A stretch of DNA of 64,000 nt from Lachnospiraceae bacterium P6A3. Lineage in GTDB: Bacteria > Bacillota > Clostridia > Lachnospirales > Lachnospiraceae. The stretch spans positions 744,001 through 808,000 of the forward strand of contig JNKP01000001.1 in assembly GCA_000702085.1 (NCBI GenBank). The letters are read 5' to 3'. A program made the translations under genes and the position numbers. This document shows positions 1-29,937 of the stretch, piece by piece; positions within the stretch are counted from its first letter, which is position 1; each line of letters begins with the position of its first letter. The notes beneath the pieces are model-generated. The model had not been told where the DNA came from and ran no database searches. It saw nothing but the letters and a program-made list of their open reading frames with translations.

Positions 1-235
1 GTGGAATCAGCAGAGATGATACAATCGTAAAAGTACATCTCCTCCAGTTATATGCAAGCTTGGTATGCAGCAGCCAGGAAACTGCAACCATCAGGAGCAG
101 TATTATCCATGATCCGGTAACTGTTTTACCATCCAAGCATTTAAAAAAGAGGTTGTTATACCATATCAGTGCAATTAATCCCCAGATAATCGATTCCGCA
201 TAATAATTTTTTTTAGTCAATGAATTGTTGCACAT
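1..235 (-). CDS. Membrane protein fragment, truncated by left edge
   Basis: An open frame runs from an ATG at 235 to the left edge without a stop (78 codons). The start is well supported by AAAGGAGGG about 6 bases upstream. The visible N-terminal part starts with MCNNSLTKK and has two hydrophobic stretches (residues about 17-31 and 43-56), so it is probably a multi-pass membrane protein. It lies 35 bases downstream of the next gene on the same strand and is probably the next member of that operon. The family is not recognisable from the fragment. Confidence 0.65.
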   Translation of the reverse strand, partial: MCNNSLTKKNYYAESIIWGLIALIWYNNLFFKCLDGKTVTGSWIILLLMVAVSWLLHTKLAYNWRRCTFTIVSSLLIP

Positions 236-270
236 ATAGCACCCTCCTTTTGATTTATTTATCAGTCCGC

Positions 271-1119
271 TCAGCCGTATTTCTTCATATTGTTCATGAT
301 CTCCCTAATACGATTGAACCGGACCGCCTTACCGGAATTGAGAAATCTCAAAGCCTCAATCCTTTTATTCATCGGATATGTTCCTACATATTTCATTGCC
401 CAATTCGTAAATCCGATTTTTTTCTCATTCAGATCTTTTCTCGAAAAAGGATGAACCGAATGTAATCTTTCTATAACAAAATCCGCATCATAAGCCGGAG
501 TATCAGGTTCAGATATTTCCAGACAAGTAACCAGTTCATCCGAGACATCCTCCGAATTGGTCTTTATCGGAGGCAGACTTCCGACAGCGCTTCCGCATGG
601 AAAAAATCTTACTCCGGGTATATCCGGATCCCCCAAAGCCACGGCAAAGCTGAAAGGAATATCATTATGAGCACGATCAAACGGAAGAGAGTATTCCACA
701 TTGTGTTCTTCCAGGTATTCGTCCAGCTCTTTTTCATAAAGGCATTTCATTTCATAGTACTCATCAAACGTATTGGTTCTCACATAAGCCATCAGTTTAT
801 TAATCATAAGCCAGGCTGTCGGCATATACATCCAAGGTATAAACATGCCCTCAACGCTTGCACAAAGTGTATTATCCTCATCAACCCTGAGATTGAAGAT
901 AACCCCTCCCTCTTCAAAAATCAGAAGGAATGAATTGTCGTTATACAGCGATTCCTGCCCGCCGGTTAAGCCATATTTCAGTATATTTTTGTTATGTCCG
1001 AATAAGATTTTTTCTATGCATTTTTTACTGCCTTCGGGTAACTCTTCCGGCCAGAAAACACTGCATCCTTCATCATTTTCCATAGAAAAGAAGCTTGAAT
1101 ATTTGATCATGTAACTCAT
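271..1119 (-). CDS. Uncharacterised 282-aa protein of the GTPase/AAA operon
   Basis: I do not recognise the family. The start has a clear GGAGG 8 bases upstream. The protein is soluble-looking and acidic, with aromatic-rich segments and no signal peptide or membrane segment. Its N-terminal half (a WPEELPEG stretch followed by alternating strands) has the same general flavour as the start of the 292-aa neighbour (LLPESFPGEF). The two could be distant relatives, but this is weak. It follows that neighbour by 13 bases in an operon with a P-loop GTPase-like protein. A role as a partner or regulator of the GTPase is inference from position only. Confidence 0.7.
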   Translation of the reverse strand: MSYMIKYSSFFSMENDEGCSVFWPEELPEGSKKCIEKILFGHNKNILKYGLTGGQESLYNDNSFLLIFEEGGVIFNLRVDEDNTLCASVEGMFIPWMYMPTAWLMINKLMAYVRTNTFDEYYEMKCLYEKELDEYLEEHNVEYSLPFDRAHNDIPFSFAVALGDPDIPGVRFFPCGSAVGSLPPIKTNSEDVSDELVTCLEISEPDTPAYDADFVIERLHSVHPFSRKDLNEKKIGFTNWAMKYVGTYPMNKRIEALRFLNSGKAVRFNRIREIMNNMKKYG

Positions 1120-1132
1120 TCTTTTAGCCTCC

Positions 1133-2011
1133 TTAATCCGTTTTATATCCCAACAAAGAGTATCTTTTTCTTATACGCATTTCTTCGAGCATCAATCTGT
1201 CCATTGAAACAGTTCCTTTGAAGAAGCGTTTCGAGCTTCTTAACACGCGATTATCTCCCGGCTTTTGAAGAATCCATTCGTAACTTTGCTGCTTCCTGCT
1301 CTCTTTATTAAATCTGATCAACAGATTCATCGATTCGTTCATAGATTCCTCGTGAGTATTCACATCAGCCTGTGTTAAATAGTTCATGACCGCTTCGAAT
1401 GAATCCGGCACATCATAATGTTTAGACGGATCATAATATTCATTAAATAACGCTTTCCCATAAACGGTTAATCCTTGTGCTTTATGTAATATCATTTCGG
1501 AATTGGGACCGAATACGCATCCGTATCCAAATTCATGATGTCTGATATCGGTTATTAGTTTTTTGAAAGCATCCGTGTTCAGTTCATCATTCAGAGGATA
1601 CTCATCAACGGGCAGTAACGGGTTTAAATTGTCTTCTATGTAATATCCGTCCTCCAAGCATTCTCCATCCAGGTAAAAACCATTCTTATAAATATCGATC
1701 AGAAGATCCGGGACGGCATATATTGCTCTGTTATCATTTCCTGAATACGAATATCCTCGTATCGAATAAATAGGCCTCCCCACATAATCCTCTCCGGGAG
1801 AAACAACCTGACAGGCAATAAATGTTGAATCTATCTTCATGAAAAAGACTATTTTCTCCCAGTCTATTGATTCTTCATCCCTCAATCCATCACGCAGAAA
1901 GATGAACTTCTGAATCAAAGGATAGAATTCACCCGGGAAGGATTCAGGTAACAGTTTCCAGCAGTAATCTGTCCTGAGATCTCTGCTGTATTCAAATAGG
2001 CTATACCTCAT
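1133..2011 (-). CDS. Uncharacterised 292-aa protein next to the GTPase
   Basis: The family is not recognised. The start ATG is preceded by GAGGTGA at good spacing. The protein is soluble, with an aromatic- and charge-rich N-terminal half and a basic C-terminus (residues about 255-290 rich in Arg/Lys). The segment around residues 55-85 (FFMKIDSTF...VVSPGEDYVGRP) vaguely recalls GTPase-associated proteins that sit beside conflict-type GTPases, but I cannot establish homology by eye. It begins 8 bases after the GTPase-like gene, so the two are probably co-translated. Confidence 0.7.
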   Translation of the reverse strand: MRYSLFEYSRDLRTDYCWKLLPESFPGEFYPLIQKFIFLRDGLRDEESIDWEKIVFFMKIDSTFIACQVVSPGEDYVGRPIYSIRGYSYSGNDNRAIYAVPDLLIDIYKNGFYLDGECLEDGYYIEDNLNPLLPVDEYPLNDELNTDAFKKLITDIRHHEFGYGCVFGPNSEMILHKAQGLTVYGKALFNEYYDPSKHYDVPDSFEAVMNYLTQADVNTHEESMNESMNLLIRFNKESRKQQSYEWILQKPGDNRVLRSSKRFFKGTVSMDRLMLEEMRIRKRYSLLGYKTD

Positions 2012-2019
2012 AGTTCACC

Positions 2020-3174
2020 TCACTTTGCTATTCCGAATCTTCTGACGGAGGAAAATCTGTTTGAAAAACCATCATTGATTGCGGTTATCATATCCATATA
2101 TTTGTCACGTTTTTTTGCAAACTCATTCTTTTCCTGAGTCAGATATGTGATTGTTTCCTTACGCTGCTTGATATTAAATATAGCGGGTTTATTAAGTTCC
2201 TCATTGATCCTGCTTTCATATATGCCAACTTCTTTTGACATATACTTATACCTCTCGGAAAGAGCATTCTTTATGCAATAGATCAAAGCTACATCGATAT
2301 TCTTCTGATGGATGTCGGCATTGTACTTAAGAGCCGAGTAATATTCGTCAATTTCCGGGATATATTTGGTCACGGAGTTGTTTTCTCCGATTGCAGTTAC
2401 CGGAATAACCGCAAAACTCCATCCATGATTGCGAGACATAATTGAGCTTTTAAGATATATGCTGTCTATTGTCCTGCAGGCAAGATCACAAAGCCCTTGA
2501 TAGTCATGTGCCTTCAGTTCCTGTGGAATCTTGTCACTATCCACTTTTGTGATCATAACCATTACGGTTACGTCCTTATTTGGTGTTTTCATCAATGTGT
2601 TCATCAATGCATTAAGTCTGTCAGCTCCCGTCTTCTCCTTACGAAGAGACTCGTTATCACTGTACTGAGCAAGTGCAATTCCATCGAGGAGTATCATGAT
2701 GATCTCACTCTGATTCAGATTATCCATCAGCACTTTGCACTCAGAGATATCATTCTCCGAGATATTCGAACTATTAAGTGATAACAGTCCGCCCCTGTAA
2801 TCCATAATCTTTACGGTCTGGGACATTTCATTGCATCCCGGAGAAACAACATCCAGATCAAGAAAATAATGTGCCATATCAACCGTGCCCGCAGCGGATG
2901 AACCTATTTTGCCGTTCTTATCCACAGAGGCCATCAGAGATTTCTGGTTATACCCCCCCATCACGACCGAAGCAAGTATTCCGGAAAGCCCGTTGTCTCC
3001 ATCCGATGTCCTGAAATGTGCATCATCACCGGATCCGGTTGCAGTCATCGTAATTCCGTTTTCACCGGAAACACAGCCTTTAAGCAAAGCCTGCATCATG
3101 GCACCTATTGCCATAGACTTTCCTGATCCCGTCATTCCCAAAAGTGTTGTATATATGCTTTCCTTCTCTCTCAT
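2020..3174 (-). CDS. P-loop GTPase-like protein
   Basis: This 384-aa protein has a Walker A/G1 motif GMTGSGKS at residues 13-20, a DYRGG segment at about 125-129 that fits G3 (DxxG), and TKVD at about 209-212 that fits the G4 base-specificity motif. This suggests a TRAFAC-type GTPase domain filling the first 270 residues. The C-terminal 110 residues are charged and probably helical. The start was placed at ATG 3174 because GGGAGGT lies just upstream; an in-frame TTG 15 bases earlier would overlap that site. It sits in an operon with an AAA protein and membrane proteins, which suggests a switch or assembly role, but the partner is unknown. Confidence 0.75.
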   Translation of the reverse strand: MREKESIYTTLLGMTGSGKSMAIGAMMQALLKGCVSGENGITMTATGSGDDAHFRTSDGDNGLSGILASVVMGGYNQKSLMASVDKNGKIGSSAAGTVDMAHYFLDLDVVSPGCNEMSQTVKIMDYRGGLLSLNSSNISENDISECKVLMDNLNQSEIIMILLDGIALAQYSDNESLRKEKTGADRLNALMNTLMKTPNKDVTVMVMITKVDSDKIPQELKAHDYQGLCDLACRTIDSIYLKSSIMSRNHGWSFAVIPVTAIGENNSVTKYIPEIDEYYSALKYNADIHQKNIDVALIYCIKNALSERYKYMSKEVGIYESRINEELNKPAIFNIKQRKETITYLTQEKNEFAKKRDKYMDMITAINDGFSNRFSSVRRFGIAK

Positions 3175-3178
3175 AGCT

Positions 3179-3526
3179 TTACCTCCCAAGAATAAGTACC
3201 GATTGGAATAAATTTATTATTCCTAAAATCATCAGCCATATTGATCTCTTAAGATCAATTCCTCCGATATGCCCCAGTACACTTAATACGCAAAAAACCA
3301 ATCCCAAAACAATCATCCCGATACCGCATAGATTAAAAAACGTATAATACAATGTGTGTGAAACTCCCGATAAGCTGAAAATCATTTCTCCCACTTCCCG
3401 TCCATCGCATATATTCAGCGCCCATTTCACAAATATCAAAACAATATTCAGCACTTGGTTACATAGTGTATAATCGTGCAATCTGGCAGGAGATATCCAT
3501 GCTGCGATTATAGGTTTGTTTTTCAT
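3179..3526 (-). CDS. Small membrane protein, 2-3 TM segments
   Basis: This 115-aa protein has hydrophobic segments around residues 20-40, 63-85 and 93-112, so it is probably an integral membrane protein with no recognisable domain. The start was set at ATG 3526 because GGGAGGG lies 6 bases upstream. A longer frame starting at 3547 would overlap the preceding stop and lacks a good ribosome site. It ends 4 bases before the GTPase-like gene, so the two are likely co-translated. It may anchor the operon's cytosolic ATPase/GTPase at the membrane (inference). Confidence 0.65.
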   Translation of the reverse strand: MKNKPIIAAWISPARLHDYTLCNQVLNIVLIFVKWALNICDGREVGEMIFSLSGVSHTLYYTFFNLCGIGMIVLGLVFCVLSVLGHIGGIDLKRSIWLMILGIINLFQSVLILGR

Positions 3527-3539
3527 AAAGCCCTCCCAT

Positions 3540-4088
3540 TTATTCATCGATCACTTTGGTAATTCCGGATGAAGAAACTACACATATATGTCGTTCATAT
3601 ACCTCGATATAGCTGCATTCGGGATTTTTCTTATACATTTCATACCCCTTCTTTAATCTCTCAGGCATTTTATTGATAAGTCCAAATCCGGCTCCGCTCC
3701 TGCTACCGTAATGAACACAATTGGGAAGCAATGTATGGATCTGGCAGCCAGTTATATAGCATTTAGTAAGGCTGCATATCAGATGATCTACTTTCGTTTC
3801 TTCAACAACCTGCTTCTGTTCTTCCTCTACATGCTCCTGAACTGCCTGTATGATTTCCAGATCATCTTCGGTTAATTCATCACCTTTTTCCACAAGACTG
3901 ACCACGTATGAAGATCTGGCTTTTCCGAGTATTTCTTTGATCTTATTCTCATCAGCCGGTTCAACTGCCGTATCTGCGGTCCTTCTGCGGTATGCAGGGA
4001 TCATTCTCTGGTACAAGCTCTGGTCGGTTTTAGTTTCTTCCTGCCCAGCCTGATTTTGCTTAAATCTTTGACATGATAGTTGATTCAT
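3540..4088 (-). CDS. Uncharacterised protein, paralogue of the 17830-18333 product
   Basis: This 182-aa protein has a Gln/Glu-rich, likely disordered or helical N-terminal 100 residues and a compact C-terminal domain of about 80 residues. The C-terminal domain shares landmarks with the 167-aa protein encoded at 17830-18333: KCY (residues 109-111) then HTL (118-120), a basic LERA/ERLKK helix, IEVY (161-164), then a C-x-V-S-strand ending in VI. Order and spacing are similar in both, which supports homology. The start has GGAGGAAG upstream. I do not recognise the fold. It lies between the triple-AAA gene and a small membrane protein in the same operon. Confidence 0.7.
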   Translation of the reverse strand: MNQLSCQRFKQNQAGQEETKTDQSLYQRMIPAYRRRTADTAVEPADENKIKEILGKARSSYVVSLVEKGDELTEDDLEIIQAVQEHVEEEQKQVVEETKVDHLICSLTKCYITGCQIHTLLPNCVHYGSRSGAGFGLINKMPERLKKGYEMYKKNPECSYIEVYERHICVVSSSGITKVIDE

Positions 4089-4101
4089 TGCACTTCCTCC
4101 T

Positions 4102-7011
4102 TCACGCGACGTCCGGAATGTCCTCTGCTTTTATTACATTCATACCCTCTAAAGGGAAGTTCTCATCTCTGCCGATACGAGCCTGCAGATTTCGGATACT
4201 CTTTTCAGCAAGGTTTCTCATAGATCTTCCGTTACCGAAGTCAGGATCGGACATGTTTACATCAATCCAATCCGAAAGCTTCTCGCGGAATTCTCTGCTG
4301 TCGTCACATTTGATATCATTCTTATGAACGAATTGTTCAAATATGCTGACCAGTTCTTCTTTGGTATAAGGATTAAACTTCACATAGGTGGGGAATCTGG
4401 ATTTCAAGCCGGAATTTTTACACAGGAAATCGTCAACTTTATCAGCATATCCGCTTGCAATCACTATCAGATCATTACCTCTTGCATCAATACCCTTACA
4501 TAAGGCATTTATTGCACTTTGTCCGAAGTCTGTACCGTTATCCATCTGATATACTTCATCTATGTAAAGGATCCCTCCCACAGCCTCGTTGATTGTTTTA
4601 TTGACCCGTTCTTCAGTCTGACCCACAAATCCTGCTATAAGGTCCTTTCCGTCTATCTCTTTAATCTTGTCTGAATATTTCAGTAGTCCAAGCTCTGAGA
4701 ATAACCTTGCTATCAATCTGCAAACCGTAGTTTTACCTGTTCCGGGAGGGCCGGCAAAAATCATATTGTATGACGTCGGATCCATAACATTAATTCCCGC
4801 TGCTTTTTGTTTTGATCTTCCGTTGATGCCTTCCACCATTTCGTTAATCATTTTTTTCACTACATTAATGCCGATCATATCGGATAGTTCTTTTATAACT
4901 TCAGTGACTTTGCCCCCAGAAGATGAATTGATTGCATTAAGGAGATCATCTTTGGTGATAATGTCACTATCACAGGATGCTGAATCCATAAGTTCCTCAC
5001 ATATAGTTATTACGCCACCTGCGTTTCCGAAATTTTCACTTTTTCTTCTCATGTCAAGTAACGTATAAACAAGACTCTCCGAATCATTCTCCAATTCAAA
5101 ACCATTTTCTTTAAGATGGTATTTGAAAATATTTACCATTTCGTCAACGCTGTAATCATCTATCATTATCTTGTTTGGGAAACGTCTATTCATACCCTTA
5201 TTCATCTTGATAACAGGATCGATAGTGTTTGGATAACCAATAAGCACAACTACAACATCCTTACCGGGTTTACCAAGTTCATTGGTGAGAGTATCAACAA
5301 TTTCCTGACCATAATTGCCACTGATTCCGTTTCCTGCAGGCGCCAGAGTATATGCTTCATCGATAACCAGAAGTCTTCCTTTTGCCTTTGCAATCACCTG
5401 CTTTACTTTATCCGGAGTTGCCCCCACACTGGGATCCTGAAGATCCGCAATGGATACTATATACGGTTCATCCGAAGACAATACTCCGCAGGCTTTAAGA
5501 AGCTCTGCCAGCAAATAACAGGATGTTGTTTTTCCGACTCCGGCTTCACCTTCCAAAACAAAATTTGGTTGATCTATTTTTATTGGCGTTTTTCCATTAC
5601 GAATTCTGTCTTCATTGTCACTTGCCCGTTTATAGATCTTTTGTGCATACGCTTTAATCTGCTCCTGTCCTGTTTTCGAATCAATTTTTGCCTTTATTTC
5701 ATCAGCTTTTTCCTTATCGAATACTTTGATTTGTATATCCGATTTTATAATCGTAAAGCGATCTTCCTTCGATATAGAATTGTTTTTTGATACTCTCTCT
5801 TCAAGTTTATCTATTGCCTCTCTGTAAACATCGGCAACAAACCTTCCCTGACTGTACTCTTCAAATGATGTACGCTTTATCCTGTTCTTAAGCTGTTCTA
5901 TTGCATCTTCACTCATGGGATATTTTTGTTCATCAACAATTCTCTTTTTTGTCAGGGCAAGCAATTCATCATTCGAGTACTTATCAATAGGGATCTGATA
6001 GAATAAATCATCAACTCTGGTACTGAGCAGTCTCATTTGTTCCCTTAATTCATAGGATAATTCGAATATTACCGTAAGCTCTCCATTTATCTTCTTTATG
6101 ACATGTAACAAATCATTCAGTTTATTTGCATCTACCGATATTTCTCCGTCATTATTCATAAAGGCTTCATCCAGATGATCTTCGATCAAAACAGTCTTTC
6201 CCTTGTAGTCTTTAATAAAATTTTTCAAGCTTTTATCATCATTCAGCAGTGCCTCAAAATCCTTTAATCTGATACTTTCCGGCGATGCATTATTTCTCAG
6301 CCCTGCTATATTCAACATCTCTGTAACTATAAGTGATATCTCCGTTTTGCCCGCAAGCTCATCTCCGCACACAAGAAAACTCATTTTGGATATAGTTCTG
6401 TCTTCTTTTGCTTTTCCATACAGTGCATCTTTGAAGGAGGCATCACTCCATTCGGAATAATATTTTTCCAATAAAACTCTTACGGATTTCATCCCTATAA
6501 GATGCTTTCTGTCGAATATGTCCTCAACGACTGACTTCTTCACACCTAAAGCCGGAGTATTTGCAGTTGTTTTCACAGTTTGAACCGGCTGTACGGCCGA
6601 CTGTGTTTTCTGTGGAATCGAATATGAATTCTGTACGGTCGAAGGTGTCCTCTGTACCGTCGCAGGCGCTTCCTTTTTGGGTGCAACTATTTTCTGTGTC
6701 TGCGCGGGTACATCCTTTTTCGGAGCAGCAGTTTTCTGTACCACCGGTTTGGGTGCAACAACCTGAGGAGCCGGATTGGCAGGATTTGCCTGTTTATTCG
6801 TTTTAGGTTCATTACTGATCTGTGAAGGATATATGCTCGGATCAAAGCGCGCGGGTGCCTTCTTCCCAGCCGGTTTATTACTCCTGCTAAAACCAAGATA
6901 GGGGATCAGAAAAGCATTACATTCGGGGCAGCGTTCTCCTTCACTGTATATCTTCGGATCAGACTCTTTATCTTTGCTGTAGCAGCATTCACAGTATAAT
7001 TTTCTATTCAT
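4102..7011 (-). CDS. Zinc-ribbon, triple AAA ATPase (CbxX/CfxQ type)
   Basis: This 969-aa protein starts with a Cys cluster (CECC at 7-10, CPEC at 28-31) that fits a zinc ribbon. A Pro/Ala/Lys/Gln-rich linker follows (about 45-160), then three AAA modules. The first has a degenerate P-loop (CGDELAGKTE, 215-224). The second has GEAGVGKTT (488-496) and LLVIDEAY (547-554). The third has GPPGTGKTT (754-762) and ILYIDEVY (814-821). Modules two and three resemble the CbxX/CfxQ family, whose members remodel protein complexes such as Rubisco and conflict-system components. The inactive-looking first module may be structural or regulatory. The start has GGAGGAGG upstream. It is probably the central motor of the left operon; its substrate is unknown. 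Confidence 0.85.
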   Translation of the reverse strand: MNRKLYCECCYSKDKESDPKIYSEGERCPECNAFLIPYLGFSRSNKPAGKKAPARFDPSIYPSQISNEPKTNKQANPANPAPQVVAPKPVVQKTAAPKKDVPAQTQKIVAPKKEAPATVQRTPSTVQNSYSIPQKTQSAVQPVQTVKTTANTPALGVKKSVVEDIFDRKHLIGMKSVRVLLEKYYSEWSDASFKDALYGKAKEDRTISKMSFLVCGDELAGKTEISLIVTEMLNIAGLRNNASPESIRLKDFEALLNDDKSLKNFIKDYKGKTVLIEDHLDEAFMNNDGEISVDANKLNDLLHVIKKINGELTVIFELSYELREQMRLLSTRVDDLFYQIPIDKYSNDELLALTKKRIVDEQKYPMSEDAIEQLKNRIKRTSFEEYSQGRFVADVYREAIDKLEERVSKNNSISKEDRFTIIKSDIQIKVFDKEKADEIKAKIDSKTGQEQIKAYAQKIYKRASDNEDRIRNGKTPIKIDQPNFVLEGEAGVGKTTSCYLLAELLKACGVLSSDEPYIVSIADLQDPSVGATPDKVKQVIAKAKGRLLVIDEAYTLAPAGNGISGNYGQEIVDTLTNELGKPGKDVVVVLIGYPNTIDPVIKMNKGMNRRFPNKIMIDDYSVDEMVNIFKYHLKENGFELENDSESLVYTLLDMRRKSENFGNAGGVITICEELMDSASCDSDIITKDDLLNAINSSSGGKVTEVIKELSDMIGINVVKKMINEMVEGINGRSKQKAAGINVMDPTSYNMIFAGPPGTGKTTVCRLIARLFSELGLLKYSDKIKEIDGKDLIAGFVGQTEERVNKTINEAVGGILYIDEVYQMDNGTDFGQSAINALCKGIDARGNDLIVIASGYADKVDDFLCKNSGLKSRFPTYVKFNPYTKEELVSIFEQFVHKNDIKCDDSREFREKLSDWIDVNMSDPDFGNGRSMRNLAEKSIRNLQARIGRDENFPLEGMNVIKAEDIPDVA

Positions 7012-7023: not shown

Positions 7024-7863
7024 TCACAGCATTTCATTAATCGCATCAATACAAATCGATATATATGGTGTCGAAATCAATATCATAAGCAGCATCCCAG
7101 CCAAACTGTCTGCCAGTTTCGGAAGAAAATTGCTTTCAAGCGCCAATACCTTAAAAAACTCACCATTTGGTTTCTTATATGTCCGAATTACTTCTTTATC
7201 CCTGTATTCATCTATCAACAGGTATTTATCCATATACTGTTTGTCACAAATTTTCATAATCACTTCCTTATTTCCGGAACTGCACGATATCGAATCTTTG
7301 TACTTGACTGCTCTTTTTCTGAAATCACTGTCCGATTCAATCAAGGAAATATATTCTTTAATCTGTTCATATGAATCCGGAAGGAAAACATATATTGGTT
7401 TATTGTCGGGCAACACACTTATCAGGATTATCTCGGCAATCGTGGCTATCATTCCTATGAATATTGCGGTATATATATCAATATTCATTCCGTTAGAACT
7501 GCACGCCGACATCAGTGCGAAAATGAATGATGCTAAAAACGGAAAGATTAAATACGGCCACGAATGATAAGTTCTTGCATTTATCCTGTTTTCTTTCCGA
7601 GCTTCAAGAATCCAGCATGCAATACCGGCGATTCCAAAGGAGCAAATGGTTGTAACTATCAAAAAAGGGACTGTACATATCCTTGTATCCTGACCGTGGG
7701 ATGATATCATTCCCAGCCTTACTATCAGTGCGATTGAAATCGTCAGTATGAAGACTATTATGGTTATCGAAAATGACAACGCCTTCTCCGTATCCATTAA
7801 AGTTTCAAGTAACCTTTCGCAGGAATGTGAGGTTTCCTTTATGATATTCAAGTAATAATTCAT
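7024..7863 (-). CDS. Membrane protein with four TM segments
   Basis: This 279-aa protein has hydrophobic segments near residues 30-55, 65-85, 100-120 and 125-150, a soluble middle domain, and a C-terminal hydrophobic stretch. The family is not recognised. ATG 7863 was chosen because GGGGAGG lies 6-8 bases upstream. In-frame starts at 7920 (ATG) and 7965 (TTG) exist but lack good ribosome sites, and the latter sits on the T-run of the preceding terminator. It is the first gene of the left operon, 13 bases before the triple-AAA gene, and could be its membrane platform (inference). Confidence 0.7.
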   Translation of the reverse strand: MNYYLNIIKETSHSCERLLETLMDTEKALSFSITIIVFILTISIALIVRLGMISSHGQDTRICTVPFLIVTTICSFGIAGIACWILEARKENRINARTYHSWPYLIFPFLASFIFALMSACSSNGMNIDIYTAIFIGMIATIAEIILISVLPDNKPIYVFLPDSYEQIKEYISLIESDSDFRKRAVKYKDSISCSSGNKEVIMKICDKQYMDKYLLIDEYRDKEVIRTYKKPNGEFFKVLALESNFLPKLADSLAGMLLMILISTPYISICIDAINEML

Positions 7864-7963
7864 GCAGGCCTCCCCTAATCTCGTTTTAAAACCGATTGCC
7901 TTTTTCCTTTGCTCAACCATAAAATATCGTACTTCCCGAAATATATCGCCCCAATTAACACAC

Positions 7964-8007: not shown

Positions 8008-8041
8008 GGTTTAGTTTTATGCTCCAATTATATAACCATTG

Positions 8042-22849: not shown

Positions 22850-22860
22850 TGTCAGTCTCC

Positions 22861-23310
22861 TTAAAAAGCATTTATTTTATGATTTCTTACTATGCTGGAT
22901 AATTTTCCCGATCTGTCCATCTTGGCAGAATCTTCAAGTGATTTCTGCATATTATTGGCCTGTTCGATTACCAGACTGCGATACTGTCTGCGGTCGTTTT
23001 CGGGTATTACCGGCAGATCAATCGCATCCGCAAGAAACATCATTTCCTTACGAAGAGCCAGTATGGATTGAACTATGGAGCTTTCCGTTCCTCCGTTTCT
23101 GTTGATGTCCTTCTGGAACTTATCGGAAGCCATGTTCATTCGCTGGTTTACGGCATCTATCAGTTTCTTGGAAAAGCGCTCTGCAACTCCCGCCTGCCAC
23201 TCAAGGGTTCCGGATTTCATGGCGGCGAGCACTTCATCATCGTTAGTCTTATCCTTGAATGCAGATATTACCTTGGACCATTCTGCATATGTGTGAGGAG
23301 CTGCTATCAT
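22861..23310 (-). CDS. Uncharacterised 149-aa helical protein
   Basis: The family is not recognised. The protein looks all-helical, with amphipathic segments and no membrane or metal motif. AAGGAGG precedes the ATG, which overlaps the stop of the zinc-ribbon gene upstream by 4 bases (ATGA), so the two are translationally coupled. It lies 11 bases before the Ycf46-like AAA gene. It may be an adaptor between the zinc-ribbon protein and the ATPase (inference). Confidence 0.65.
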   Translation of the reverse strand: MIAAPHTYAEWSKVISAFKDKTNDDEVLAAMKSGTLEWQAGVAERFSKKLIDAVNQRMNMASDKFQKDINRNGGTESSIVQSILALRKEMMFLADAIDLPVIPENDRRQYRSLVIEQANNMQKSLEDSAKMDRSGKLSSIVRNHKINAF

Positions 23311-24089
23311 TTGCCTTTCCTCCTTACTACAATTTGAGGAGGCACCATGTCCCAGCTGGGAAGTCCTTCTGCAAATACACTAACCTCTTCCTGAAGCTCT
23401 TCAGCCGGTGTCTGAGGCTTTGAAAGCACCTGACTTGCTTTCTCACTCCTGGCCTGTCTTGCAGCTTCGTATGCTTTCATACGTGCACTGTTGCGGGGCC
23501 TTCTGGGTGTAACCGCACTGCTTGTGGTACCTTTATTAGCCGAAGGAGCTTTTTCCTCGGGCTTGCTTACTGTTTCAAGCTTTGCTCCGCAGGAACGGCA
23601 GAAACCTGATTCCGAAGAATTCTCTGTTCCACAGTTTGAGCAAAATACGGAAGCAGCGGCATTCGGCTGAACAGCCTGAAATGCAGGCTTATCAGCGCTT
23701 GAAGAAGGCACAGCTTCCTTAGCGGGCTCAGCTGATTCAAAAGGTACAGCAGTTTCATCTTTCTTTGTTTCAGGCTCTTCTTCCGAAGCAGGAGCAAATG
23801 CAGGAGACTCAAGAGGTGTCTTTTCACCCTCTTCAAAGCCTCCGATCCTTAAACCGCATGAGCGGCAGAAAACCGCACCGGGTTCATTTTCGTCGCCGCA
23901 TCCGGGGCATATATTCTTTTCGGTTTTAGGCTCTTCTGAAGCTGCAGGTGCCGTGTCAGGCTTTTCAATCTTTGCTCCGCAGGAAAAACAAAAAACTGCT
24001 TCGGGAAGATTTAACGAATTACACTTCGGGCAGGGGACTTTTTCTCCTGCTGCAACGGAATTTATGATATTAGCATTTGAATTATCCAT
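23307..24089 (-). CDS. Triple zinc-ribbon protein
   Basis: This 260-aa protein has three CxxC...CxxC zinc ribbons: Cys20/23/34/37, a second near residues 60-80 (CPGCG ... CRSCG) and a third near 147-165 (CSNCG ... CRSCG). They are separated by Ala/Pro/Glu-rich linkers, and the C-terminus is basic. Such zinc-ribbon-plus-linker proteins generally act as scaffolds. GGAGGGAAG precedes the ATG. It sits between the coiled-coil membrane protein gene and the 149-aa gene. Confidence 0.8.
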   Translation of the reverse strand: MDNSNANIINSVAAGEKVPCPKCNSLNLPEAVFCFSCGAKIEKPDTAPAASEEPKTEKNICPGCGDENEPGAVFCRSCGLRIGGFEEGEKTPLESPAFAPASEEEPETKKDETAVPFESAEPAKEAVPSSSADKPAFQAVQPNAAASVFCSNCGTENSSESGFCRSCGAKLETVSKPEEKAPSANKGTTSSAVTPRRPRNSARMKAYEAARQARSEKASQVLSKPQTPAEELQEEVSVFAEGLPSWDMVPPQIVVRRKGK

Positions 24090-24101
24090 TTATCTTCCCT
24101 C

Positions 24102-25829
24102 CTACATCTTAATTCTTCTGCCGGAATCAGCCAGCTTCTTAACATATTGTTCGGGTGAGATCTGCTCGAGGAAATCAAGAACCTGCTGACTTTCGGAATC
24201 TTTCTCTTCGAACTCTTCTCTGAAATCAACGACTTCTGCCAGAGTAGCTCTGATGATCTTGGTTCCGTTTTCTCGTTTATCTTCAAACTGGAAATCAATA
24301 TGCTGTCTGTTCTTATCAACCTGCTTTTTCTTGGAGAAGTGATTTATCACCATACCGATACCGGCAACAACTGCGATAAATCCGAGGAAGTGAGCACCGC
24401 CGATAAGCATCAGCAATCCGACAATAGCTATTGCACCGCCTCCCCATAGGCAGAACTGTTCGAAGCCGCCCAATACGCACTGTGATAATGCAACGGACTT
24501 TTCGGAATCAATCAGCCTATTGAAGTTTTCGATCATTTCCGTCTCATTCTCACCATCCTTGGTCTTATCATTGAATGTATCCACATTGATCTCGATGAAA
24601 TGGGGGATCTTACTTCTGTTGCTTGCTATAACATCATTGTATGCATTGGTTACCCACTCTTTGGAAAGAGCGAAGGCAAACTTCTGAGTGGATACACTTG
24701 AATGAGAAGTTTCGGGTTTCATTGCAGCATCGGTAAGGAGCTGTGTGAAATCCTTATGGGTTTCAAACGCAGTCTCCTCTACGGTCATATTCTGGCGGGC
24801 TCTGCTTTCATCGCCTTCAAAATCAACCACAAACTGCTCGAATTTCTCTTCTTTTCTCAGAGGTAATTCTTCATCATCAAAGTCGGTTACAAGGCTGTTA
24901 AGAATCTCATCGAGCTGTTCTTTTATGCTGGCGGTAGATGACTGCTGCTCAAAAATATTGATGAGGTAATCCAGCATTATTCCGTGGAGAGTTGCACCCT
25001 CCATGATATTCTGAAGAATAGGCCAAGTCTTACTGTACTTTCTCAAATATTCATATGAAGAAGTATCAACGGGTTTTCTCTTGGCTCTGATAGCATCCGA
25101 CCACTGCTTGGTCTGCTGTTCGGTAAAGCCGGGCTTTTCCTCAAGATTTGAAAGCCATTCGTTCATCTGCTTGGACACAACGCCCTCGGTGTCAGCTCCG
25201 AAAAGTCCGCTGGCAAATGCATCAAGCACAATAATAGTCTTACGATCCAGATTTTCTTCATCCTGCATCTCAAGATATCTCTGGATCCACTTCAAGCAAG
25301 CACCTTTCCTGTCCGCTCTTCTGCAGATAAGAGCAAAGAAAAGTGAAGTCTTCTCATCATTCCTCTTGATACCCTCTTTCAAAGCTCTTTCCGCAAGCTC
25401 GGGCTGATCGTTAATCCATGCCGCAAGAGCTACAAGACAGGGTGCAAGCCAGTATCCGGGAGTTGAGATCATCAGTTCCTCGGTGGCGTTACTGATTGTG
25501 TCTTTCTTTACGATTCCCAGATCGTCTGCCTGAAGAATACCGGTAGTGGTTCTTCTGACAATGTCATAATGACCGTACTTTTTCTCCAGTTCCTGTCTGA
25601 TCTTAACCAGACGAGTTTCAGCCTGATTAAGTCTGTTGGCCATTTGCTGCTGCATTACGAATGAATGGAAATCACGTGCCAGTGATCCAATCTCGTCATA
25701 CACAACTTTGACGTTGTCATTGACTGTACCGACTCTCTTGTCGATAGTGCCCAAGTCATCATGGATAACGCCGAGATTATTGGCTATCCTTGTCAGATCG
25801 GCCTGAGCGATAATTCTTTCATCAGACAT
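24102..25829 (-). CDS. Coiled-coil membrane protein, 575 aa
   Basis: The N-terminal 95 residues are heptad-like (DLTRIANNLGVIHDDLGTID), suggesting a coiled coil. A helical, TPR-like middle follows (about 120-330). Near residues 455-500 there are two adjacent hydrophobic segments (GGGAIAIVGLLMLIGG and FLGFIAVVAGIGMVI), likely a membrane hairpin. The C-terminal 75 residues are charged. The family is not recognised. AGGAGGAAT precedes the ATG. It lies 12 bases after the HerA-like gene and may anchor that motor to the membrane (inference). Confidence 0.7.
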   Translation of the reverse strand: MSDERIIAQADLTRIANNLGVIHDDLGTIDKRVGTVNDNVKVVYDEIGSLARDFHSFVMQQQMANRLNQAETRLVKIRQELEKKYGHYDIVRRTTTGILQADDLGIVKKDTISNATEELMISTPGYWLAPCLVALAAWINDQPELAERALKEGIKRNDEKTSLFFALICRRADRKGACLKWIQRYLEMQDEENLDRKTIIVLDAFASGLFGADTEGVVSKQMNEWLSNLEEKPGFTEQQTKQWSDAIRAKRKPVDTSSYEYLRKYSKTWPILQNIMEGATLHGIMLDYLINIFEQQSSTASIKEQLDEILNSLVTDFDDEELPLRKEEKFEQFVVDFEGDESRARQNMTVEETAFETHKDFTQLLTDAAMKPETSHSSVSTQKFAFALSKEWVTNAYNDVIASNRSKIPHFIEINVDTFNDKTKDGENETEMIENFNRLIDSEKSVALSQCVLGGFEQFCLWGGGAIAIVGLLMLIGGAHFLGFIAVVAGIGMVINHFSKKKQVDKNRQHIDFQFEDKRENGTKIIRATLAEVVDFREEFEEKDSESQQVLDFLEQISPEQYVKKLADSGRRIKM

Positions 25830-25840
25830 AAAGATTCCTC

Positions 25841-28516
25841 CTACTGCGTAGTTTTATTACTATATTTCAGATAGTCAGCCAGGATTTTCTGCCTCTGACC
25901 ATCATTAAGACTCTTATCTTTGCTTAAGATCATTCCGAGTATGCAGAGCTTTCTGTGAACATTGTCTTTCTTCAGTTCACTCAGCAAGCCCGATCCCAGG
26001 AATTGTTCGAGTGTACCCGGATTGTATCCGCTCTTATTAAACTTCTCGAGAACCTTACCAACCGCGATTTTTGCGTTGATAAACTCTTCGGTTTCCTCGA
26101 AATATTTACATCTGTGCTCACAAAATGAGCATCCTGCATGATGAGCATAAACCCGGTCATACCCTTCAGCAATGTCACTGACTCTCTTACGTGACTCGGC
26201 TATTACCTCATCCCTGTTCTTCTCGTAGAAAGACTGAATAAGGGGCAGCTTTACACATTTAGGTTCGTTATCGCCTTCCGCATAAACCGCCGCATATCCG
26301 CGTCTGAGCGAACTCAGATACTCAATCTGCTCTTCGTTCATGTTCATGGCTTTTCCCATGACTTCGCGGTCTTCCATGGCCACGGTTCTGTGAACGATCT
26401 TCAGGTTAGTATTCTTGATGGTATCAGGAGCAATCTTTGTGGGAATCTGATCGGCTATAATTATTCCCTGCCCGAAGGTACGTATCTCTGCCAGCATGTT
26501 ACAGAAAAACTCAACCGACTTGGCTCTTGTACTGCCACCTTCGCCGCCTTCCGAAACATTCTTAAGCAGGCGGTGCGCTTCCTCTATCATAAGAATGTGA
26601 GACAGCTTCTTGGCTCCCTTTGTCATCAGAGACTTTCTGTATTCATATAACTGAACCAACAAAATACCTATAACAAATGACTTTGTCTCGTCATCACCAA
26701 GATCTTCAAGTTCCATTACAACAGGTCTGTTTAATAATTCTTCAATAGGAACCGACTTCGGAGTATTAAGCATGGCTCCTTTTCCGCCTATCATCAGCGA
26801 ATATACTCTAGCCTGAAGTGCCGCTTTGACATTTGACTTAACTTCCTGATGATATCCCATCTCATCGATGATCACATCGATCTTGTTATACAGATCAGTC
26901 AGGGTAGGATATTCGGTAAGCCCATACCTGTTCCTGTTTTCGACAATATCCCATCCTCTGTCGCTGTATACGGCATAAACAGCCTTCTCCAGAATGTATG
27001 GCATGGGAGGATAGAGATCGAAGGCTGCTTTGAATGTTGAAAGCAGGTAATCGATATGCGTCTGAAGGGATATTCCCTTACTTGCTTCAAAGGGATTGAT
27101 CCTGTACTTCACCGATGTGCCGGAAGCTTCGGAACCCAGTGTAAAAACTATAAGATCTTCGAATCCCTTAAGATTTCTCAGTTCCCAGTACTCTCTCTTC
27201 GCAGATTCGATAACAAGAAAAGGAACCTTCTCCTGTGGATTCTCTGCGTTCCAAAGTACATTAAGCAGAGACTTCGAAGTGTTGGTCTTACCACCGCCGG
27301 TAATACCGATTATCAGAGCATGTCTGGTAAAATCATCTTTCTCGATGACATACTTATTATTTACGTGATCGTTTGAAACTCTTCCGGCCATGCATATATC
27401 GCCAATGGAAACAGGGTTCTTCACAAGTCCCTTGGTTCTGTTTGATACATCAAACTCGACATAATTATCGATGTAATATCCCGGAAATTCCTTGGTGGGA
27501 AGCTGACACAGCACGCCCAGCTGGTCACTGTTTAAAAGAGTCTGGAATTTATATACGTAAAGAGAGATGACCTGATTGATCCCATCTTCTCTCCACTGTC
27601 CGAGAGGATGCAGGTCCGGCTTTTCGATCAGATCCGCCATCATGTAGGTATTGGCAAGAACATCTTTGATTGAGTTGTATTCCAAAGTTCTGAAGGGCTC
27701 AGGTCTGGAATCATCACCCGAAAAAGTAGATTTAATAATGCTGCCCAGCTTCTTTGCATCAATGGCGTTATCGGATGCATAATATCCGTTTACTCTCCAC
27801 ATACCCCTGGAGACACCTTCTTTGATAGAGGCTTCAAGAAGTTCAAGATTCTCAAAATAATTCTTGCTGTGAAAATCCTGTCTCTGTGCCTGAAGGTTGC
27901 CCTGAGCTCCGCCGGTAATAGTCTGATTGATCAGAGAAAAGGTCTCCTGCATCTCTTCGAGAAGTCTTTCATGTCCCAGGGATACGGCTATGTTACTTAC
28001 TCCGGATGCCAGTACTACATAGGAAAAATTCTTACCCAGCATTCCGCGGCAGATATTCTCTATCTGATAATTCTTTTTATCTGCTCCGATTTTATTGGTG
28101 GGAATACCAGTAAACATTCCTCCGAAATTCCGTGCGCAGCTGCGCAGGGGATTATCATGCTCGGGCTGAATATCTATTCCGGGATAGGATGAAGCGTAAG
28201 AAGTCTGAAGACTTTCAACAAGCACCTTCAAAGTACCGACATATATGCGAATTCCGTCGGCATCTCCGAGAATCGCGTATGCGAAAGGAATACCGTGACG
28301 GACACAGCTGTTTAATATGTCTCCGGCAAGAGACGAAAAATCCATGGACTCTTCTCTCTCCCAGAAATCCGTCAGTCCCGCAATCCTGAAAAACTGCATA
28401 TTCTGGCACTCTTCATATCCGCCGGATAAGAAGTTGCCGTTAGCGATCATATCAAGTTCTTTACGGCATAGAGCGAAATTTTTCTCAGCTGAAGAATGAT
28501 CGAATCCCATACTCAC
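25841..28516 (-). CDS. HerA/FtsK-like ATPase (DUF87 type)
   Basis: This 891-aa protein has Walker A GITGGGKT (404-411), Walker B HILMIEEAHRLL (640-651) and an arginine-rich motif VHRTVAMEDRE. This is the HerA-type hexameric motor layout; the preceding 370 residues form an N-terminal domain. A CxxCxxxC cluster (Cys796, Cys799, Cys803) near the C-terminus probably binds metal or an Fe-S cluster. HerA-family motors translocate DNA or, in secretion-type systems, protein. No nuclease partner (NurA/SIR2-like) lies beside it. The start is GTG 28516 or ATG 28510; both fit the upstream AGGTGAGGG. Confidence 0.85.
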   Translation of the reverse strand: MSMGFDHSSAEKNFALCRKELDMIANGNFLSGGYEECQNMQFFRIAGLTDFWEREESMDFSSLAGDILNSCVRHGIPFAYAILGDADGIRIYVGTLKVLVESLQTSYASSYPGIDIQPEHDNPLRSCARNFGGMFTGIPTNKIGADKKNYQIENICRGMLGKNFSYVVLASGVSNIAVSLGHERLLEEMQETFSLINQTITGGAQGNLQAQRQDFHSKNYFENLELLEASIKEGVSRGMWRVNGYYASDNAIDAKKLGSIIKSTFSGDDSRPEPFRTLEYNSIKDVLANTYMMADLIEKPDLHPLGQWREDGINQVISLYVYKFQTLLNSDQLGVLCQLPTKEFPGYYIDNYVEFDVSNRTKGLVKNPVSIGDICMAGRVSNDHVNNKYVIEKDDFTRHALIIGITGGGKTNTSKSLLNVLWNAENPQEKVPFLVIESAKREYWELRNLKGFEDLIVFTLGSEASGTSVKYRINPFEASKGISLQTHIDYLLSTFKAAFDLYPPMPYILEKAVYAVYSDRGWDIVENRNRYGLTEYPTLTDLYNKIDVIIDEMGYHQEVKSNVKAALQARVYSLMIGGKGAMLNTPKSVPIEELLNRPVVMELEDLGDDETKSFVIGILLVQLYEYRKSLMTKGAKKLSHILMIEEAHRLLKNVSEGGEGGSTRAKSVEFFCNMLAEIRTFGQGIIIADQIPTKIAPDTIKNTNLKIVHRTVAMEDREVMGKAMNMNEEQIEYLSSLRRGYAAVYAEGDNEPKCVKLPLIQSFYEKNRDEVIAESRKRVSDIAEGYDRVYAHHAGCSFCEHRCKYFEETEEFINAKIAVGKVLEKFNKSGYNPGTLEQFLGSGLLSELKKDNVHRKLCILGMILSKDKSLNDGQRQKILADYLKYSNKTTQ

Positions 28517-28522
28517 TTACCC

Positions 28523-29464
28523 TCACCTAAACAGCCTTCGTATAAACGAGAAAATCGCACCTAATATGAGTAAAAAGATCTTAAAGACAAGTGACAGATG
28601 TGTCAGGCAAAGCACCAGTATCACTGACCATATGATGCCCTCAACACCGAATGTGGTAATAAAAAACGCCAAGGCTGCAAATACGGCAATGGTGATCAGC
28701 CATACGACGGCAACAGGTATTACCCTCTCCGGTCTTATGACGGTTCCGCTTGCTTTATTTACAATCTTCTTGGCGACAATATTATTATTGGTATCTCTGT
28801 GCCCGTAAACCTCTACATCATTGTTTTCCGAAACGGCTCCGGCATTTAATTTACCGTATACGATAACCTGGTCGCAGGCATTGCCCATGGCGTTAAGAGA
28901 TGTTCCCGTAAAATCGGGGAACACCTGAAACATCGTGATCTCATTATCGAGTGTGTAGGGAATACCTGTGAAAAGAGTTCTGAACAGCTTAACAAGCGCA
29001 GACTTGCGCTGATTATCAACATTGATATTCTTGGTGATTCCGGATGTGAGAGGTTCATTTGACGCAGGCTTGGCAGAACCGTTCTGTCCTTTTTTGCCCT
29101 TCTTCAGTACCTGAACACCGAAATTAGATGATGTAGAGACATTCGGAACCTGTCCGGGCTGATATACCTGAACCTGAGGATCCGAGGTCAGAGTCATGGA
29201 ATTTCCGTAAGGATCCAGATTGCTTAATTCGGATCCTCCCCCGAGAAGAATCTTTCTGTTTTTCCCTTTACCGGGCACATAAGTATCCGTGCTTCCGGCA
29301 TTACCCGTAGGGAAGCTGCTTTGAACTTCCTTGTATTCCGGTGCGGGATTATTGTAATTCTGAAAAGCGGACGCATACGGATCCTGCCCTATTGCACACA
29401 GTTCGCAAACATCTCCCTGATGTTCAACGTCGTTGGTTCCGCATATTCTGCACTTATAACTCAT
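28523..29464 (-). CDS. Zinc-ribbon membrane protein
   Basis: This 313-aa protein starts with a zinc ribbon (Cys5/8/20/23) and has a Gly/Asn/Pro/Ser-rich linker. A small beta-rich domain around residues 175-245 (VIVYGKLN ... VEVYGHRD) could be OB-like. The C-terminus has two to three transmembrane segments (about 248-310). RBS-like GAGGGG and AGGGG precede the ATG. It is 6 bases upstream of the HerA-like gene and resembles a membrane receptor or scaffold for that motor. The specific family is not recognised. Confidence 0.75.
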   Translation of the reverse strand: MSYKCRICGTNDVEHQGDVCELCAIGQDPYASAFQNYNNPAPEYKEVQSSFPTGNAGSTDTYVPGKGKNRKILLGGGSELSNLDPYGNSMTLTSDPQVQVYQPGQVPNVSTSSNFGVQVLKKGKKGQNGSAKPASNEPLTSGITKNINVDNQRKSALVKLFRTLFTGIPYTLDNEITMFQVFPDFTGTSLNAMGNACDQVIVYGKLNAGAVSENNDVEVYGHRDTNNNIVAKKIVNKASGTVIRPERVIPVAVVWLITIAVFAALAFFITTFGVEGIIWSVILVLCLTHLSLVFKIFLLILGAIFSFIRRLFR

Positions 29465-29538
29465 TCCCCTGACCCCTCGTAAAATTTGATATAAGCCTAA
29501 ACTATAAATTTATTTCTTTTCTATGCCTGCTTTATACT

Positions 29539-29937
29539 TCAATATCCAGGCATGCAACCAGCAAAGTCTTGAAAATTTCGCATCCGGTAACTATTTTCAG
29601 CCAGATATATAGCAACCCCGGCACTCTCAAATACTACGTGCCACGACATGAAGGTGATAAGAATCAAAAGCAGTAATACGTGAAAAGATGCAACAGAAAA
29701 AGCCGAACGGTCGGCATCACCTTTATCTGCACTCAAGCCGGCGCTTTCTTCAATTTTCTTACCGCACTTTGTGCAGAATTTTGAATCATTTTCTATCGGA
29801 GAATGACACTGAGAACAAATCTTAGAAACGGCATTCGAACCCATGGACAACGCATTTTGAGGATTACTGTTTTTATAAAAGAAATAAGCAATAATCCCGG
29901 CCCAAACTATTGTTAATAGAATAAGCAAAAGTCCCAA
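29539..29937 (-). CDS. Small TM - zinc ribbon - TM protein
   Basis: This 132-aa protein has a first TM segment at residues 1-20, a zinc ribbon (CSQC ... CTKC, about 41-57), a linker, then a second TM segment around residues 83-108. It starts at TTG 29937 with GAGGG 8 bases upstream. It is the first gene of the HerA/AAA operon. The zinc-ribbon-plus-membrane layout matches the other two zinc-ribbon proteins of the operon. Confidence 0.7.
   Translation of the reverse strand: MGLLLILLTIVWAGIIAYFFYKNSNPQNALSMGSNAVSKICSQCHSPIENDSKFCTKCGKKIEESAGLSADKGDADRSAFSVASFHVLLLLILITFMSWHVVFESAGVAIYLAENSYRMRNFQDFAGCMPGY

Follow-up and report, generated by a model that had tools for sequence, protein, structure and literature searches.

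Does the window, a stretch of 64,000 nucleotides from Lachnospiraceae bacterium P6A3, encode one multi-NTPase membrane machine split over two operons, as an earlier note had proposed from the letters alone, or two separate ones, and what might such a machine move? The open reading frames named in that note were all present where it had placed them (Table 1). The right operon spans 17830–29937 on the minus strand, and the region between the two operons (~8.0–17.8 kb) holds a different gene set. Our preferred reading, to which we give a probability of roughly 60%, is that the right operon encodes a putative motor-driven export system for polymorphic toxins; the export step itself is what we infer.

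Table 1. Genes of the right (R) and left (F) operons within the window.
Gene	Position	Strand	Features
R1	29539..29937	-	Zn_Ribbon_1 E=6.6e-7 (Pfam); hydrophobic segments 1-23, 76-108
R2	28523..29464	-	Two CxxC pairs, zinc-ribbon-like; hydrophobic 245-312, C-terminal TM region; gene immediately 5′ of motor
R3	25841..28516	-	VirB4/HerA-type motor ATPase; GITGGGKT and IEEAH intact; invariant C-terminal Cys set
R4	24102..25829	-	Coiled-coil protein; TM pair 458-499
R5	23307..24089	-	Three Zn_Ribbon_1 stretches, E=2.5e-18 (Pfam)
R6	22861..23310	-	149-aa core protein; no known fold assigned
R7	21272..22849	-	Ycf46/CDC48-like (CDC48/PAN-type) AAA ATPase; AAA E=7e-29 (Pfam)
R8	18868..21207	-	Predicted polymorphic toxin; acidic leader, coiled-coil-like middle, zincin-like C-terminus (HEHNH ... 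NEALTEMF)
R9	18353..18862	-	Candidate immunity protein for R8; directly 3′ of toxin gene
R10	17830..18333	-	Small conserved protein, last gene of right operon; F3 family
F1	7024..7965	-	Multi-TM protein, five hydrophobic segments
F2	4102..7011	-	Two CxxC and SpoVK/CbbX-type AAA repeats
F3	3540..4088	-	R10-family protein
F4	3179..3547	-	Small TM protein, two hydrophobic segments
F5	2020..3189	-	GTPase-like; P-loop in sequence
F6 + F7	271..2011	-	No function assigned

Several single-gene descriptions of the earlier note held. R3, described as HerA-like, matches DUF87/HerA at E=7e-9; the Ycf46-like R7 is of the CDC48/PAN type; R4, taken as a coiled-coil membrane protein, has two TM segments; and R8, described as acidic with a zincin motif, has both properties. 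Three zinc-ribbon proteins had been counted in the right operon, of which R5 (three ribbons) and R1 (one) stand, R2 having only its two CxxC pairs and no Pfam zinc-ribbon match. The supposed zinc-ribbon triple AAA, F2, resolves into two AAA and three AAA_lid_6 stretches by Pfam, nearest to SpoVK/EccA/CbbX, with two CxxC. For the GTPase-like F5 the P-loop agrees with the description, and at 15.5 bits (E=0.014) the match to DO-GTPase2 stays under the cut-off, which is 27.

The left operon, which joins a VirD4/TraG-like pump to a CbbX-type AAA and a GTPase-like protein, is a machine separate from the right operon. The window begins inside this operon, which runs on leftward (739.0–744.2 kb of G000:C1, G000 being the window's own genome), with genes for a 4-TM zincin-like protein (F8), a 274-aa protein, a VirD4/TraG-like ATPase (F10; T4SS-DNA_transf, E=9e-35) and a 537-aa protein. 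Scans of 299 family genomes, limited to two AAA candidates and at most three motor candidates per genome, found a close left AAA (E<=1e-55) in G000, G401 and G453, and a close motor (E<=1e-100) in G000, G427 and G529. Once every candidate was scored, no motor reached E<=1e-10 in G401 or G453, no left AAA reached E<=1e-20 in G427, and the only AAA in G529 was one of 514 aa that matches the last domain. Likewise, with all candidates scored, a close left-type TraG (F10 relative) was found in 0/8 class A genomes, those whose motor is 65–75% identical to R3 (L042–L047, L049 and L053); two of the eight have TraG matches at 25–26% identity. A joint two-operon system is thus refuted for the genomes tested, since the operons do not co-occur in them, a test that had been set beforehand. 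Of the membrane-associated sensing or delivery machine envisaged over both operons, a membrane-associated conflict system of the delivery type remains the likeliest interpretation for the right operon; as with the two-operon machine of the earlier note, no named system could be matched to it.

These results bear equally on the idea that the operons form one split T4SS-like apparatus, with the left TraG as VirD4-like coupling ATPase and R3 as VirB4-like motor. F10 and R3 would provide the two ATPases, the operons share the F3/R10 family and a genomic neighbourhood, and in G011, which has a close motor locus, a TraG gene on another contig has an F8-like zincin (E=3e-11) two genes away, the sole link found in TraG neighbourhoods; yet the two operons stand together in no tested relative and the class A genomes lack a close F10, so that we hold a split apparatus to be highly improbable. 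The eight stretches opened around TraG genes contained no left-type operon. F3 and R10 do form one small family, as had been claimed; aligning the two with each other does not show it (BLAST E=0.55; 23 residues aligned by hhalign at P=0.009), but intermediates do: L157 10381–10989 matches R10 (2e-13) and F3 (3e-11), and L158 9565–10086 matches F3 (2e-17) and R10 (5e-8). In the same two loci, the closest relatives found of F2 stand after an HSP70 gene. Assignment of the left operon to the GAP1-N2 systems was also considered and set aside, as the local GAP1 and DO-GTPase profiles were not convincing: Pfam found no GAP1 in the left proteins scanned, a two-sequence GAP1 profile gave at best P=0.09 over 10 residues, and a DO-GTPase profile into which dynamin-like genes had crept gave P=0.012 with hhalign.

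The right operon is conserved on its own in other Clostridia. The order R2–motor–R4–(R5)–R6–R7–effector slot–R10 recurs in five relatives (L042, L043, L044, L049 and L053), and in L046 the gene order agrees up to the contig end. Identities are 64–74% for R4 (L042–L046, L049, L053), 59–72% for R6 and 73–88% for R7 (both in L042–L044, L046, L049, L053), 67–77% for R10 (five relatives) and only 45–56% for R2, homologs of which lie 5′ of the motor in L042–L044, L046, L049–L051, L053–L055 and L057. R5 has shorter homologs in L043, L044 and L049 (31–48% identity) and is missing in other relatives. Over residues 238–543, R4 matches the PADLOC LeoBC profile (E=9e-7), a match otherwise unsupported, and against a dynamin set contaminated by non-dynamins hhalign gave P=0.044. 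The AlphaFold2 model of R10 is poor (pLDDT 50).

As modelled, R3 has the VirB4/HerA-type motor fold, with its Walker motifs intact. The best Foldseek match of the model is TrwK/VirB4 of the R388 T4SS, which covers residues 34–781 and superposes poorly as a single rigid body (rmsd 14.8). The fold also matches SIR2/HerA, DUF4297-HerA and HerA-NurA chains; the structural-match list (VIA-align) barely covers R3 residues outside 112–776. By sequence, three HerA/helicase matches were found in the PDB, the best at 2e-11.

R8 is predicted to behave as a polymorphic toxin, because a constant E/D-rich leader is combined with a variable end across relatives. The leader has 2–3 FDDC-like repeats in 6/6 effectors compared, with three copies in R8 (residues 40, 72 and 101). 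Expressed as [FY][DENS]DC, a motif defined after inspecting the effector sequences, 2–3 copies fall in the first ~105 residues of each of the six, the whole-protein shuffle means being 0.010–0.024. The middle of R8 is common to the effectors of L042, L043 and L044, and its C-terminus has homologs in L043 (2e-6) and L074 (8e-5). Among the window, L042, L043, L044 and L053, the last 220 effector residues are related in one of ten pairs; the motor, R4, R6, R7 and R10 are 59–88% identical to those of the window. The ends are zincin-like in the window and papain-fold deamidase, HNH-like or otherwise zincin-like elsewhere: the slot of L042 holds a papain-fold glutamine deamidase (Gln_amidase, E=4e-15), and in L053 a SUKH gene (E=2e-9) lies immediately 3′ of the effector, as a SUKH gene also adjoins the toxin in L060. 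Papain-fold and TNT toxins belong to polymorphic toxin systems. R9 is the candidate immunity protein of R8, judged from its position and from a weak profile match to the genes 3′ of zincin-like effectors in L043 and L077 (hhalign P=9e-4 over 125 columns; pairwise BLAST not significant, E=0.29).

By sequence, R8 has no match in the PDB and no Pfam domain, the zincin call coming from the motif and two homologs. That R8 has no Pfam toxin match, and that L049 keeps the machinery genes with the effector ORF absent from the slot, would suit a housekeeping or envelope-stress operon whose acidic R8 is structural or chaperone-like and no toxin. Such an operon, however, is hard to square with C-terminal ends that swap, with a slot that holds a known toxin domain in L042 and has a SUKH neighbour in L053, and with a patchy occurrence (3/299 family genomes with a close motor, the window's own included), and we give it next to no credence.

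The wider motor family was sampled as 80 loci chosen by the motor alone, 14 of which were dropped for want of a usable motor or downstream ORF; the 66 usable loci include seven of class A (L042–L046, L049 and L053), in which machinery genes, and not the effector, occupy the first two downstream positions. The 128 genes directly downstream include 22 LHH, 6 Colicin-DNase and 27 SUKH_6 members. An LHH or colicin-type nuclease lies directly 3′ of the motor in 28/66 loci (the L112 and L113 toxins being identical); at 22 of the 28, the nuclease gene is followed by one that fits a local SUKH profile. Each of the three is absent, as a family with at least two members, from 115 distant control genes (>4 kb upstream or >6 kb downstream, some belonging to the same systems). 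With one hidden control match allowed and genes assumed independent, Fisher tests gave p=2e-7 for SUKH_6 and p=4e-6 for LHH. No toxin was recognised directly 3′ of the motor in L048, L051 or L115, L055 has an acidic leader and no recognised toxin behind the motor, and a toxin was recognised in only 1/5 plasmid motor loci opened.

Neither R8 nor 64/66 first downstream genes have a hydrophobic segment near the N-terminus, and R8 lacks a Sec signal; nor was any LXG/WXG, T6SS or PVC trafficking domain recognised in it. The lack of N-terminal hydrophobic segments and a motor fold that also fits SIR2/HerA, DUF4297-HerA and HerA-NurA would accord with an intracellular suicide or antiphage system, in which the NTPases sense invasion and free a pre-made toxin, SUKH or R9 proteins are antitoxins, and the motor moves DNA; in excerpts of PMC7159879, the authors take most of their GAP1-N2 systems as intracellular. 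Against this, the effectors come from interbacterial toxin families with separate immunity-type genes and a common leader, the top Foldseek match of the motor is VirB4, and R1–R10, which adjoin or include the window motor, show no SIR2, NurA or DUF4297 Pfam match. We consider intracellular action unlikely, and prefer export because of the conserved operon, the constant leader and variable end, the toxin and SUKH families behind the motor, and the VirB4/HerA fold.

Under the export reading, R8 would be a polymorphic toxin, encoded together with a membrane-associated apparatus dedicated to it and with R9, probably its immunity protein. R8 may be addressed by its acidic leader, which carries the FDDC repeats, and by its coiled-coil-like middle. 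Capture and unfolding of the toxin would fall to the AAA ATPase R7 together with R6, R10 and R5, the zinc-ribbon protein; the R3 motor, seated on the TM proteins R2 and R4, would push the toxin outside or into a neighbouring cell while R9 shields the producer. These roles of R2, R4–R7, R9 and R10 are putative.

Among known systems, T7SSb (EssC/LXG) is alike in that, in Firmicutes, it pairs polymorphic toxins with a motor of the FtsK/HerA superfamily; EssC, however, is multi-domain whereas R3 carries one DUF87 domain, and the operon has no WXG100/LXG Pfam match at E<=0.5. T4SS VirB4/TrwK shares the motor fold, but Pfam recognised no VirB3, VirB6, VirB8 or VirB10 homolog in the right operon, nor any other known channel subunit in R1, R2 or R4, though remote homologs may be present. 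The SIR2-HerA, DUF4297-HerA and HerA-NurA systems have a like motor and partners that the right operon lacks by Pfam; they are not known to carry an immunity gene. LeoABC resembles the locus through the LeoBC match of R4 and the dynamin genes that precede the motor in many distant relatives, but the window's right operon has no dynamin. GAP1-N2 DO-GTPase conflict systems (PMC7159879) were reportedly set out by Kaur et al. in 2020. Their components adjoin relatives of the motor (G011, L065, and L055 with HSP70), whereas the window has a Ycf46-AAA, R4, R6 and R10 instead, with no DO-GTPase or GAP1 Pfam match at E<=0.5 among R1–R10. In excerpts of that paper most systems show no effector-secretion features, and ‘HerA’ appears once, in the reference list. 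Polymorphic toxin systems (2012, PMC3482391) are, in the passages available, like the R8 locus in their constant N-terminus, swapped toxin ends and adjacent immunity genes, SUKH included; the acidic leader with FDDC-like repeats and the VirB4/HerA motor of its own set the R8 locus apart. Those passages treat LHH, WHH and metallopeptidase toxins, and use HerA with reference to T7SS ATPases. The best matches of open-access PMC literature searches, in the parts retrieved, did not describe the motor with polymorphic toxins.

Motor relatives also adjoin GAP1-N2/DO-GTPase/tubulin genes, dynamins and HSP70. Near the G011 motor (48% identical) are DO-GTPase2 (E=1e-9) and Tubulin_2 (E=2e-55); in L065 GAP1-M matches at E=5e-8 and GAP1-N2 falls narrowly short of its threshold (8e-5); and L055 has an HSP70 gene. 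Dynamin-family genes lie 5′ of the motor in at most 27/77 loci, once L049, a polyphosphate kinase, and L072, which matched only FlgT_C, are taken out, and Dynamin_N was found by Pfam in 6/8 such genes tested. The order on the Lactococcus plasmid pB26B is dynamin–dynamin–two unnamed genes–motor–WHH DNase–DUF6985. We tentatively suggest, at somewhat less than even odds, that the VirB4/HerA-family motor is an unrecognised, widespread export route for leader-tagged toxins lacking signal peptides, with interchangeable NTPase front ends: Ycf46-AAA/R4 here, and elsewhere GAP1-N2/DO-GTPase/tubulin/vWA, HSP70/CbbX or dynamins. If so, the GAP1-N2 ‘intracellular conflict’ systems would be recast as toxin-delivery machines, and the DO-GTPase/tubulin, dynamin and HSP70 conflict operons would gain a common partner and a testable function, export of the adjoining toxin. 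Colicin-type and LHH toxin genes without a known export signal lie directly 3′ of the motor in several phyla, for which the motor is a candidate route; in gut Lachnospiraceae it would constitute a competition system outside T7SS.

Finally, the idea that the locus is a clean 39-kb island, gained by simple insertion, was not supported. In the congener G420, where neither a motor (E<=1e-10) nor a left AAA (E<=1e-20) was found, the UDP-sugar dehydrogenase of the right flank and one gene of the left flank have homologs 1.7 kb apart; a single other gene, and neither operon, lies between them. The region is rearranged in G420, with this left-flank gene turned round with respect to the dehydrogenase and another left-flank gene, which is superoxide dismutase-like, found on the opposite side.

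A three-sequence alignment of the right-operon motor (R3, VirB4/HerA-type), scanned against 84,980 species genomes, returned 80 loci. The gene order R2-motor-R4-(R5)-R6-R7-[slot]-R10 is common to L042, L043, L044, L049 and L053; L046 follows it up to its contig end, the loci of L045 and L047 being short fragments. Identity to the window in L042, L043, L044 and L053 is 65-74% for the motor, 71-74% for R4 (coiled-coil membrane protein), 59-72% for R6, 73-88% for R7 (Ycf46-like AAA) and 68-75% for the small protein R10, with R2 (CxxC membrane protein) lower in conservation at 45-56%. Judged by gene order and identity, the right operon is a conserved module.

The slot between R7 and R10 holds acidic proteins, R8 in the window. 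Their leaders carry two to three copies of [FY][DENS]DC, 24-33 residues apart, in 6/6 proteins (shuffled whole proteins gave means of 0.010-0.024, for a motif picked after viewing the sequences and a shuffling that takes no account of local acidity). A KFD.V..KEKGTDEYKEALSEYN stretch after the leader is common to the window, L042 and L044, and to L043 by BLAST. Among the C-terminal 220 residues, one pair in ten is related, window-L043 (E=2e-9), and the zincin-like end of the window protein is homologous to the ends of L043 and L074. At its C-terminus the L042 protein carries a papain-fold glutamine deamidase (PF15644, E=4e-15); that of L053 has a histidine-rich end, HNH-like by eye and with no Pfam name, and a SUKH gene behind it (E=2e-9). 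HExxH is present in the slot proteins of L043, L044 and the window, none of which gave a Pfam peptidase match. The candidate immunity protein R9, encoded behind R8, aligns weakly with the genes that follow the L043 and L077 effectors (P=9e-4; pairwise E=0.29). The L046 effector is cut within its leader, and L049, with the same class of machinery, has no effector ORF between R7 and R10. These comparisons show that the slot is the site of a swapped effector with a constant leader and a changing end.

Toxins were also found across the wider motor family. In 66 of the 80 loci, which had been picked by motor peptides, independent of toxins, the two genes next downstream (128 in all) were each represented by their C-terminal 240 residues. 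Pfam returned LHH (22), Colicin-DNase (6) and WHH (6), together with SUKH_6 (27), SUKH_5 (25) and SMI1_KNR4 (23), the three SUKH models overlapping. None of these families reached two members in 115 control genes of the same loci (>4 kb upstream or >6 kb downstream), for which 25 families were listed, single hits being possible outside the 25. By motif, the first downstream gene belongs to LHH at 22 loci and to TWHH at 6; the gene after it matches an L060-derived SUKH profile in 22/22 and 0/6 of these, respectively. L066 has a TNT-type toxin near the motor (E=5e-21), and in L070 a further papain-fold toxin follows the motor match at a distance of about 1.9 kb. No recognised toxin was found at the motor loci of L048, L051 and L115, and L055 has an acidic leader without one. 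Annotated plasmid loci gave a recognised toxin behind the motor in 1/5 (Lactococcus pB26B), in a scan that left out the first, 78-aa gene of L166. Taken together, the downstream genes indicate a toxin-linked motor family.

The analysis shows a conserved module, a constant leader with a swapped end, the motor fold and, behind the motor, families of toxins and immunity proteins. The first 60 residues contain no hydrophobic segment in 64/66 first downstream genes (R4 being that gene in seven class A loci, those with close right-operon machinery), nor in R8. The main rival explanation is an intracellular suicide system instead of export. For export, R7/R10 would recognise the leader, the toxin would be unfolded, and passage would occur at R2/R4, driven by R3; the toxin would be delivered to neighbours while R9 would protect the producer. 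Each part is of a known kind; in the literature searched, no paper was found that pairs a VirB4/HerA motor with leader-tagged polymorphic toxins.

Front ends vary. Local searches of 77 loci, many of them short, found tubulin-like and vWA proteins in 9, Ycf46-type AAA in 7 (including L119), HSP70 in 5 and CbbX-type AAA in 3. Upstream of the motor, up to 27 loci have dynamin-family genes (two false cases taken off a count of 29); of 8 such genes tested, 6 matched Dynamin_N. In G011, genes for DO-GTPase2 (E=1e-9) and Tubulin_2 (E=2e-55) are close to the motor (48% identical), and L065 contains GAP1-M (E=5e-8) and a just sub-threshold GAP1-N2 (E=8e-5). GAP1-N2 systems are described in PMC7159879 as mostly without features pointing to primary-effector secretion. 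In the present data, polymorphic toxins and a secretion-type motor adjoin such genes.

Motor homologs (E<=1e-20) occur in 33/295 genomes of the order, and the left-operon GTPase (E<=1e-5) in one, the window's own. In the family (299 genomes, with 2 left-AAA and up to 3 motor candidates scored in each), a close motor was found in G000 (the source genome), G427 and G529, and a close left AAA (F2) in G000, G401 and G453. With every candidate scored, G401 and G453 have no motor, G427 has no left AAA, and G529 has no more than a 514-aa AAA that matches the last domain of F2. Eight genomes have a motor at 65-75% identity (L042-L047, L049, L053). Of these, two (G299, G305) have F2 matches, to single AAA domains only, and two (G295, G305) have matches to F10, the VirD4/TraG-like ATPase of the left operon (T4SS-DNA_transf, E=9e-35), at no more than 25-26% identity. 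The operons are separate. The earlier note had read them as one system, and among the genomes tested a close motor and full left AAA occur together only in G000. The small family it saw in both (F3/R10) is borne out, single proteins in G401 and G453 matching both and the joint alignment holding. These lie directly after an F2-like AAA or one gene further on, and the AAA stands behind HSP70 in each (by Pfam for G401). This family is the remaining link between the operons.

The two genes bounding the stretch of both operons have homologs 1.7 kb apart in a congener, but the surroundings are rearranged, so that a simple insertion does not follow.

Locations of the operons and of individual features
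Feature	Location	Remarks
Window	G000:C1:744001-808000	source genome 2.98 Mb
Both operons and intervening genes	G000:C1 about 735.7-774.7 kb (window -8.3 kb to 30.7 kb)	about 39 kb
Left operon F1-F7	extends past window edge	then 4-TM zincin-like, 274-aa, VirD4/TraG-like ATPase and 537-aa proteins
Between operons	window about 8000-17840	radical-SAM-like, methyltransferase, HAD-like, kinase-like, phosphoglycerate-mutase-like and Sel1-like genes
Right operon R1-R10	17830-29937 (minus strand)	intergenic gaps <=74 bases
Motor	25841-28516	Cys set at residues 796-858
L049, R7 to R10	16838-16964
L066, second toxin-like gene	14001-14690	TNT by Pfam
L067, second toxin-like gene	13636-14295	TNT by eye
L078, second toxin-like gene	13782-14591	TNT by eye
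L150 (G011 contig 64), TraG-like gene	1813-5384

The motor C-terminus has an invariant Cys set (C796, C799, C858; C803 nearly so), possibly a metal or Fe-S site. The second toxin-like genes stand behind the LHH toxin and immunity gene and have a similar Ser/Gly/Asp-rich leader. In L150, a homolog of the left-operon membrane zincin F8 lies two genes from the TraG-like gene (E=3e-11). L146, L147 and L148 each encode a TraG-like ATPase with about 30% identity to F10, in a gene cluster that, by eye, also has an apparent E1/ThiF-like gene and, in L146 and L148, an apparent small ubiquitin-like gene.
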